Under the pieces are notes generated by a model that was not told the DNA's origin, ran no database searches, and worked only from the letters and a program-made list of their open reading frames with translations. The position numbers and the translations under genes were made by a program. Source: an uncultured Acidobacteriota bacterium (GTDB lineage: Bacteria > Acidobacteriota > Terriglobia > Terriglobales > Acidobacteriaceae). Taken from it: DNA of 5,104 nt. The DNA lies in assembly GCA_903932385.1 (NCBI GenBank), contig CAIZGA010000351.1:1-5104 (forward strand), given 5' to 3'. How positions within the stretch are numbered: position 1 is the stretch's first letter; each line of letters begins with the position of its first letter. Of the stretch, positions 2,663 through 5,104 are shown in pieces.

Positions 2663-3067
2663 ATGAAGGCCTACCTGACGCGGCGCTATCACTTTAGCGC
2701 ATCGCACCGTCTAAACAACGACGCATTCTCTGCCGAGAAAAACCGTGTGGTCTACGGCAAGTGCAATAATCCGCATGGGCATGGGCACAACTATGTGGCG
2801 GAAGTGACGCTGTGTGGTGAGGTGGACCCGGCCACTGGCATGGTTTGCAATCTGGCGGACCTGGATATGTTTGCGCGAACAAATTTGCTGGATGCTTTTG
2901 ACCATATGAATTTGAACACCTTGAAGTGTTTTGCGAATCTTGTGCCCACAACAGAGAATCTAACCATAGAGATTTTCCGTCGGTTCCAAAGTGGATTCAG
3001 CCATGCGCATCTGGAGCGGGTGCGGGTGGAAGAGACAGGCAATAATTCATTTGAATATGCCGGTTAG
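2663..3067 (+). CDS. 6-pyruvoyl-tetrahydropterin synthase homologue, copy 2 (eukaryote-type motif)
   Basis: This 134-aa paralogue of the preceding protein shares roughly 55 of 115 aligned residues (hand count). It keeps every active-site position: zinc ligands H15, H40 and H42, catalytic C34 in YGKC with the same C-x5-HGH spacing, D80-H81, and E124 in RVEET. It differs from copy 1 in the loop after the zinc His (RLNNDAF versus YYWNPAW), in the residues after the Asp-His pair (MN versus RH), and in the C-terminal strand, so substrate preference or oligomer role may have diverged. The start ATG follows the copy-1 stop by 2 nt. A GGAG at 2649-2652, inside the end of copy 1, could serve as its ribosome binding site at a long 10-nt spacing, which fits coupled translation. 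PTPS enzymes are hexamers, so a mixed complex is possible. It sits 44 nt upstream of folE. Confidence 0.92.
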   Translation: MKAYLTRRYHFSASHRLNNDAFSAEKNRVVYGKCNNPHGHGHNYVAEVTLCGEVDPATGMVCNLADLDMFARTNLLDAFDHMNLNTLKCFANLVPTTENLTIEIFRRFQSGFSHAHLERVRVEETGNNSFEYAG

Positions 3068-3816: not shown

Positions 3817-4692
3817 ATGAACGGATTACTGGTGCTGGATAAACCCGCGGGGATGACCTCGCACGACGTTGTGTATCGCGTGCGTCGCGCCACCGGTGAA
3901 AAATCCGTCGGACATCTGGGCACGCTGGACCCGATGGCAACCGGCGTATTGCCTCTACTGCTGGGCCGATATACACGGCTGGCACAATTCTTCGGACAAG
4001 CCGAAAAAGAATACACAGGCGAGATTAGTTTCGGCTTTTCTACCGATACGTATGACGCCGAGGGATCTCCTACCAGCAATCCACAACAACTGAATAGCAC
4101 ATTGCAAGAATTACAATCGCTGGCCGCTGGATTTCTTGGCGAGAGCCAGCAGATGCCGCCTGCCTACTCCGCAAAAAAGATTGATGGAACGCCAGCACAT
4201 CGACTGGCGCGTGCCGGGAAGCCAGTGGAATTAAAAACCGCGCGCATTGTGATTGGGAAATTTGAATTACTCTCGCTGGAGAATAATGTTGCTAGCTTTT
4301 CCATGGCAATTTCTGCTGGCGGCTATGTGCGATCTGTCGCGCATGAACTGGGACGACTCGCTGGTTGCGGCGCACATCTTGCCAGTCTGCGTCGTATCCG
4401 CGCCGGCGTCTTCTCATTGCAGCAGGCCGTTACTCTGGATGCAATGGAATCGCTCGCCGCCGAAGGCCGAGTGATGGATGCCATGCCGCATCCGCGAACG
4501 CTGCTGCCAGAGATGCCTTGCGTCACGGTGGATGAGCAAACTGCCGTCCGACTGCGCAATGGTATGGCAGTCAACCTGCCGGAATTTTCATCCGCAGAGA
4601 AGATTAAAATTTTTACCAGCCAGCGCGATTTGCTGGCTATTGGTCGCCGCATGGCAGGCACATTGATTCAGCCGATGATTGTGCTGGGCTGA
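3817..4692 (+). CDS. truB: tRNA pseudouridine-55 synthase
   Basis: This 291-aa enzyme isomerises uridine 55 in the T loop of elongator tRNAs. Seen: the N-terminal LLVLDKPAGMTSHDVV (4-19), motif II GHLGTLDPMATGVLP (32-46) with catalytic D38, the K64-E-Y66 motif whose Tyr stacks on the target base, PPAYSAKKIDG (114-124), and AGGYVRSVAHELG (167-179) with R172 contacting the catalytic Asp. The region from about 225 to the end is a C-terminal PUA-like/TruB_C domain. The length is normal for bacterial TruB, and the protein looks intact and cytoplasmic. The ATG at 3817 gives the conserved N-terminus but has no good Shine-Dalgarno sequence, so translation may depend on coupling or A/U-rich context. 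TruB is commonly found with rbfA and infB; here it is the last gene of the pterin block, with no clear functional link to its neighbours. Confidence 0.97.
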   Translation: MNGLLVLDKPAGMTSHDVVYRVRRATGEKSVGHLGTLDPMATGVLPLLLGRYTRLAQFFGQAEKEYTGEISFGFSTDTYDAEGSPTSNPQQLNSTLQELQSLAAGFLGESQQMPPAYSAKKIDGTPAHRLARAGKPVELKTARIVIGKFELLSLENNVASFSMAISAGGYVRSVAHELGRLAGCGAHLASLRRIRAGVFSLQQAVTLDAMESLAAEGRVMDAMPHPRTLLPEMPCVTVDEQTAVRLRNGMAVNLPEFSSAEKIKIFTSQRDLLAIGRRMAGTLIQPMIVLG

Positions 4693-4706
4693 AGTTATTT
4701 CTTCAG
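4689..4706. other. Perfect hairpin joining the two convergent stop codons
   Basis: CTGAAG (4689-4694), loop TTATTT, CTTCAG (4701-4706) is a perfect 6-bp inverted repeat. It contains the truB stop TGA (4690-4692) and the stop of the minus-strand ORF (TTA at 4695-4697). There is no U-tract on either side, so at best it is a weak bidirectional terminator for genes with only 2 nt between them. Confidence 0.3.
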
Positions 4707-5104
4707 ATAGGGAAGTATCAACGGCAGCAGATTGCGCGCCACCTGTGCGTTGCCCTTGGCGGTTGCGTGGATGCCATCTTCCTGCATGCTGCCGGGCACA
4801 CCATACACATTGCGAAGTAAAAATGGTTCCAGCGGAACATGATATTTTCGTGCCAACTGCTGATACGTTGTGTCAAACTGGCGGATGTAATCGTCTCCAT
4901 AATTACGCGGCAATGTGATGCCCACAGTCGCAAAAATCATCTGCAGAAACCGCGAGCAATCCTGCTCGCCGTACATATCTCCCCACCCGTAAGGAGCATT
5001 CAACATTTTAAATGCCTGACGATACAGTGTCCGCGACGTAAATGGCAGAACCCCAAAGGACACATCCTCCCGCGACAAAAATGCGGACACAAAAACAACC
5101 GAAC
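4695..5104 (-). CDS. Chimeric ORF: NlpC/P60 N-terminal part fused to TesA-like SGNH hydrolase end (5' partial)
   Basis: The reading frame is open to the window edge. The GTG at 5090 is only the first possible start inside the window, and sequence similar to NlpC/P60 proteins continues upstream of it, so the true start lies outside. Numbering from that GTG, residues 1-63 resemble SH3-containing NlpC/P60 (C40) peptidases: LPFTSRTLYRQAFKML (15-30), PYGWG (33-37), catalytic Cys in D44-C45-S-R-F, and G57-I-T-L-P-R-N63. Residues about 57-131 resemble the C-terminal end of TesA-like arylesterases/thioesterases: LPRNYGDDY (60-68), VPLEPFLL (85-92), and the catalytic D105-G-I-H108 block followed by a terminal helix. 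The NlpC/P60 His and third polar residue are missing, as are the SGNH nucleophile Ser and oxyanion residues, so neither active site is complete. It converges on truB. It may be a decayed or novel fusion, or an assembly chimera at a contig end. The domain assignments are firm; the biological reality of the fusion is uncertain. Confidence 0.7.
   Translation of the reverse strand, partial: SVVFVSAFLSREDVSFGVLPFTSRTLYRQAFKMLNAPYGWGDMYGEQDCSRFLQMIFATVGITLPRNYGDDYIRQFDTTYQQLARKYHVPLEPFLLRNVYGVPGSMQEDGIHATAKGNAQVARNLLPLILPYLKK
4896..4922 (-). other. Fusion junction between NlpC/P60 and SGNH halves
   Basis: These codons (residues 57-65 of the chimeric ORF) spell G-I-T-L-P-R-N-Y-G. NlpC/P60 proteins typically have G-I-x-L-P-R-[NDT] at this point and TesA-type hydrolases have G-M-x-L-P-P-N-Y-G, so the homology switches within a motif common to both. 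The join is in frame and no repeat or insertion sequence is visible at it. Such short similarity could have mediated either a genuine recombination or a k-mer-based misjoin. Confidence 0.6.

Follow-up and report, generated by a model that had tools for sequence, protein, structure and literature searches.

The stretch of DNA analysed here (the window, 5,104 nucleotides) is an entire contig, C351, of an Acidobacteriaceae genome assembled as 687 contigs (2,925,465 bases, 76.74% complete, 3.05% contamination). Its last open reading frame, on the minus strand at positions 4695-5102, carries both a DCSRF and a DGIH motif in 135 codons that stay open up to the contig edge. Comparison with related genes and genomes indicates, with a probability of roughly 0.93, that this chimeric ORF is a metagenome misassembly at the end of the contig, and it is most likely neither a new domain architecture nor evidence of a dead tesA gene. 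At positions 4902-4922 the assembly would have switched from the organism's own tesA into an NlpC/P60 gene, probably of another organism, and continued there for about 180 bases, the cause being that both genes probably share the 21 bases encoding GITLPRN. The real tesA would be an ordinary SGNH esterase/thioesterase gene that was split, such that its front, with the GDS serine, ends a second contig (C189) and its back ends C351. We infer that the parents share these 21 bases in their DNA, that another organism supplied the NlpC part and that the assembly software, not a cell, created the join. A misassembly accounts together for the two tesA pieces, the template that bridges them, their spacing, the gene order and the lack of close NlpC/P60 relatives in the family. 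The initial annotation had offered misassembly, a deletion between neighbours and a new architecture as its three options; the first is favoured here over the other two, and what it says of the two parents, of the absent catalytic segments and of a junction within a shared motif holds.

Two partial domains in one open frame

The frame itself and searches with Pfam and NCBIfam models confirm that an NlpC/P60 piece is joined to the C-terminus of a TesA-like SGNH hydrolase. As the frame reaches the edge of a window that is the whole of contig C351, the chimeric gene is cut by the contig end. A GTG at position 5090, proposed earlier as a start, is not credible because the four residues upstream of it (residues 1-4) also align with P0004, an NlpC/P60 protein.

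The Pfam family NLPC_P60 (PF00877) matches residues 36-77 (E 1.8e-5, 25.1 bits against a cut-off of 23, profile positions 2-44 of 105), and Lipase_GDSL matches residues 65-124 at 1.5 bits below its cut-off (E 1.9e-4, profile positions 141-207 of 208). The TesA model of NCBIfam, PRK10528, matches residues 61-123 (E 3.9e-12, profile positions 136-198 of 210), with a score of 46.3 bits against a cut-off of 270 that is set for full length. The matches to both domains are thus partial, and no profile search placed the whole ORF in one family, so that its reading as a chimera of two partial families holds.

Neither active site is complete, as had been pointed out. Catalysis by NlpC/P60 enzymes involves a downstream His and a polar residue in addition to the catalytic Cys. 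The block around this Cys is present in the ORF, within the PF00877 match that scores above the cut-off, and the downstream part of the domain is not, since the match ends at profile position 44 and reaches position 74 in P0004. On the other side, the C-terminal block of TesA is present (PRK10528 positions 136-198), including the DGIH motif that we take to be the Asp-His of the SGNH triad, and the N-terminal GDS nucleophile serine and the Gly and Asn blocks are absent from the ORF.

A true two-domain architecture, in which NlpC/P60 and SGNH parts have a function of their own, would explain the open frame; it is contradicted by the partial nature of both domain matches and by the lack of any second fusion. 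No other fusion was found among the best 120 of 641 proteins retrieved with the ORF, which are 74-236 residues long and each cover at most 67% of the query, nor among 76 further proteins listed. When 286 proteins were compared with the separate halves, 165 matched residues 1-66, 119 matched residues 57-135 and none matched both. Likewise, a GDSL domain occurs in none of the 95 proteins of a search with P0182 (query included, lengths 193-614), all of which have SH3_6 and/or NLPC_P60 domains. With the same domain order seen in no other protein or genome among the matches listed, including those for 398 genomes of the family, the proposed new architecture is so improbable that it can practically be set aside.

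A tesA gene probably divided between two contigs

The TesA part of the ORF (positions 4695-4922, minus strand; residues 61-135 and the stop codon, with DGIH) is 96% identical to P0001, a metagenomic TesA of 167 residues whose annotated start is just downstream of the GDS block. The front half of a tesA gene, with FGDSLTAGY and FGGNDGLRG, lies at the edge of C189 in the same genome and reads off the contig; no second strong front half turned up in the genome. P0001 runs unbroken through both pieces, with 67 of 68 residues identical to C189 (P0001 1-68) and 72 of 75 to the window (P0001 93-167), and exactly 24 residues, or 72 nt, lie between the two matches. Elsewhere in the same genome (G000), positions 293-703 of C418 encode a distant, different SGNH-like protein that matches at 34-39% over part of TesA.

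The spacing recurs in relatives. We examined 55 loci of relatives, three of which (L028-L030) re-cover L003, L004 and L006. The C-terminal part of TesA is present in 47 of them, at 44 distinct places, and both parts of tesA are contiguous in 46 of the 47 (43 of the 44 distinct); only L017, which runs into a contig edge, differs. The gap between the two tesA matches is 72 nt in 41 of the 43 distinct loci, 78 in L018 and 81 in L019, the last because the front match ends three residues early. Given the bridge provided by P0001 and this conserved 72-nt gap, the best reading is that C189 and C351 hold either side of a single tesA gene and that some 72 bases are present in neither contig.

The gene order points the same way. 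Positions 3817-4692 of the window, on the plus strand, hold a gene that we take to be truB, following recall and the initial annotation; it is the usual convergent neighbour of tesA, as its relatives found by tblastn adjoin tesA in the relatives' loci. In 33 of the 47 loci, or 30 of the 44 distinct ones, truB is convergent with tesA; L007 and L047 have it at a distance of over 500 bases. The remaining 14 loci, mostly examined with 1.5 kb flanks, yielded no truB. The question whether relatives have an intact tesA next to truB is answered by these convergent pairs, together with the contiguous tesA in 46 of 47 loci. On the other side of tesA, an ABC ATPase is divergent from it in 45 of the 47 loci (42 of 44 distinct). 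Next to the tesA start on C189 there is likewise an ABC ATPase, followed by an FtsX-type permease, the same order as beyond truB and tesA in the relatives G016, G019 and G034, where all four genes adjoin one another. The missing half is thus found at another contig end with the expected neighbours.

We further note two features elsewhere on C351. At positions 2250-2660 and 2663-3067 lie adjacent genes for 6-pyruvoyl tetrahydropterin synthase-like proteins, 46% identical to each other, between a family-2 glycosyltransferase gene and folE; the same tandem and order are found in L029 and L030. The opposite end of the contig carries a tRNA-Arg gene (anticodon ACG) at positions 7-83 on the minus strand.

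These loci also bear on the earlier proposal that this lineage underwent a deletion between a tesA and an NlpC/P60 gene lying side by side. Such a deletion would yield one joined frame, but in the relatives tesA sits between truB and the ABC-FtsX gene pair, and the front half of tesA is present with its neighbours on C189. The NlpC half (60 residues, E 1e-5) matches none of the 55 loci and none of the 47 with tesA, mostly with 1.5 kb flanks, in a test that sees close relatives only, since eight of the 55 loci (L020, L032-L038), chosen as weak NlpC matches at 33-38%, were missed. Searches of whole genomes agree with this picture. The ORF matched 18 of 61 genomes (own genome included), and in all 17 others the match starts at residue 49 or later, that is, in the TesA part; G019 additionally shows, at another locus (L020), a weak 34% match to residues 6-67. 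In a larger sample of the family, 210 of 398 genomes (own included) matched, and all matches listed except that of the genome itself begin at residue 50 or later. We consider a deletion between neighbours exceedingly improbable.

The junction and the origin of the NlpC/P60 half

The ORF tracks NlpC/P60 proteins before residue 61 and TesA proteins after residue 67. Residues 61-67, GITLPRN, are a stretch common to both parents, encoded by 21 nt at positions 4902-4922 (minus strand), and the junction lies 182 bases from the end of C351. The crossover had been placed at 4896-4922, which is right to within two codons, the exact shared stretch being 4902-4922. That the switch falls inside a shared G-I-x-L-P-x-N motif is upheld by the presence of GITLPRN in both P0196, an NlpC/P60 protein (VGITLPRNSGEQ), and P0001 (GGITLPRNYGDD). 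The heptapeptide occurs in four of 119 TesA-type proteins (114 have GITLPPN and one could not be fitted to the motif) and, at the position searched, in three of 165 NlpC-type proteins (31 could not be fitted). The lineage thus carries an uncommon form of TesA, identical in this motif to some NlpC/P60 proteins.

At the DNA level, the junction 21-mer occurs once in its own genome, even when up to three mismatches are allowed. The closest NlpC/P60 DNA compared agrees at 17 of the 21 junction bases and the tesA of the closest relative at 18, so that a 21-mer shared by the parents is deduced from the protein sequences. Common short-read assemblers have 21 as their smallest word length, and 21-mers are commonly used. 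Two loci from Methylococcaceae MAGs, L068 and L069, were considered as the NlpC/P60 parent; they agree at 17 and 14 of the 21 junction bases, and neither is the parent. The NlpC/P60 gene at L068 (positions 1-480) is cut by the contig start and has a TAA at 408-410, after which the frame, judged by eye, still resembles the C-terminus of its relatives; a sequencing error is possible, as the contig has a coverage of 2.8 by its title.

The tail beyond the junction (positions 4923-5104, minus strand) is likely a misjoined fragment from the middle of an SH3b1-NlpC/P60 endopeptidase gene; it includes the DCSRF block of the catalytic Cys and is truncated where the contig ends. This assignment follows from the NLPC_P60 match and from similarity to P0196 and P0004. 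Residues 1-66 are 88% identical to P0196, an SH3_6-NlpC/P60 protein of 485 residues, and 85% identical to P0004, of 211 residues. Among the 398 family genomes P0004 is close only to C351 itself (83%), and its seven other matches are at 33-38%; the 397 other genomes sampled thus hold no close match to the NlpC part. The genome itself has no second match to P0004 at E values up to 10 and no other NLPC_P60 domain above the cut-off, with one at 10.7 bits on C274. The absence of an NlpC remainder is weak evidence, as the genome is only 77% complete. Of the 95 proteins related to P0182 (query included), 15 are named, and 12 of these belong to Candidatus Omnitrophica or Omnitrophota, the latter a phylum; Candidatus Methylumidiphilus, Desulfomonilia and Deltaproteobacteria account for one each. 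P0153, also of the NlpC type, is named Methylococcaceae.

By this distribution the NlpC half looks foreign to the family, although its base composition does not show it. The tail has a GC content of 0.50 against 0.553 +/- 0.034 in 207 overlapping sixty-codon windows from nine genes on C351 and C189, 6% of which are as low; its GC3 is 0.57, with 31% of the windows as low, and the tesA half has a GC content of 0.51. Composition was therefore rejected as a test of a foreign tail, since neither GC nor GC3 sets it apart from the host genes tested.

The same observations can be read as the trace of a real recombination in some cells, in which an NlpC/P60 gene acquired from elsewhere recombined with tesA at the short motif, so that part of the population now has a dead hybrid, with C189 derived from cells whose tesA is unbroken. 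This explanation fits the position of the junction within a short motif found in both parents, and a tail composition that is not clearly foreign. It also fits the reading frame, which passes through the join undisturbed, as it would in a real fusion. However, it calls for an acquired gene that lacks close relatives in the 397 other family genomes sampled, for a crossover within only some 21 bases and for mixed strains. In addition, C189 and C351 already fit together as one gene's two ends, at the 72-nt distance conserved in relatives. We regard such a recombination as very unlikely. Its more specific form, in which part of the population would carry a hybrid of tesA and a horizontally acquired SH3b1-NlpC/P60 gene, probably Omnitrophota-like, formed within the 21 shared bases, is highly improbable; if true, it would be a rare joining of unrelated genes between phyla through very short homology. 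Any real fusion would document recombination of this kind between unrelated genes. Under misassembly, the preferred reading, there is instead no need to consider an NlpC/P60-SGNH architecture or a tesA pseudogene, both of which are probably spurious. The case also illustrates a test that does without reads, in which the lost half of a gene is sought where another contig ends, at the conserved distance and beside the neighbours it should have.

Comparison with known systems

The two halves of the ORF each correspond to a part of a known enzyme. Residues 61-135 are the C-terminal third of a TesA-like SGNH hydrolase (acyl-CoA thioesterase I/lysophospholipase L1; PRK10528, PF13472/PF00657), of which the full-length TesA P0003 has the solved relatives 9otv, 4jgg (Esterase TesA) and 1ivn. 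The gene order truB-tesA-ABC is the same in this genome as in relatives, but the front of the gene is not on C351; it is mostly on C189, with 24 residues on neither contig. Residues 1-67 are the region around the catalytic Cys of an SH3b1-NlpC/P60 endopeptidase (PF12913 and PF00877), and P0004 matches the solved structure 3m1u, a putative gamma-D-glutamyl-L-diamino acid endopeptidase, at E 2.2e-24. Compared with this enzyme, the ORF stops short of the SH3 part, which would lie past the contig end, and has TesA sequence in place of the C-terminal part with the His and polar residue.

As a whole, the feature resembles the inter-genome misassemblies of metagenome contigs described in PMC9661791. 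Like those misassemblies, the join seen here in the contigs brings together pieces of apparently different origin at a common stretch, and it likewise lies near a contig end in a fragmented genome.
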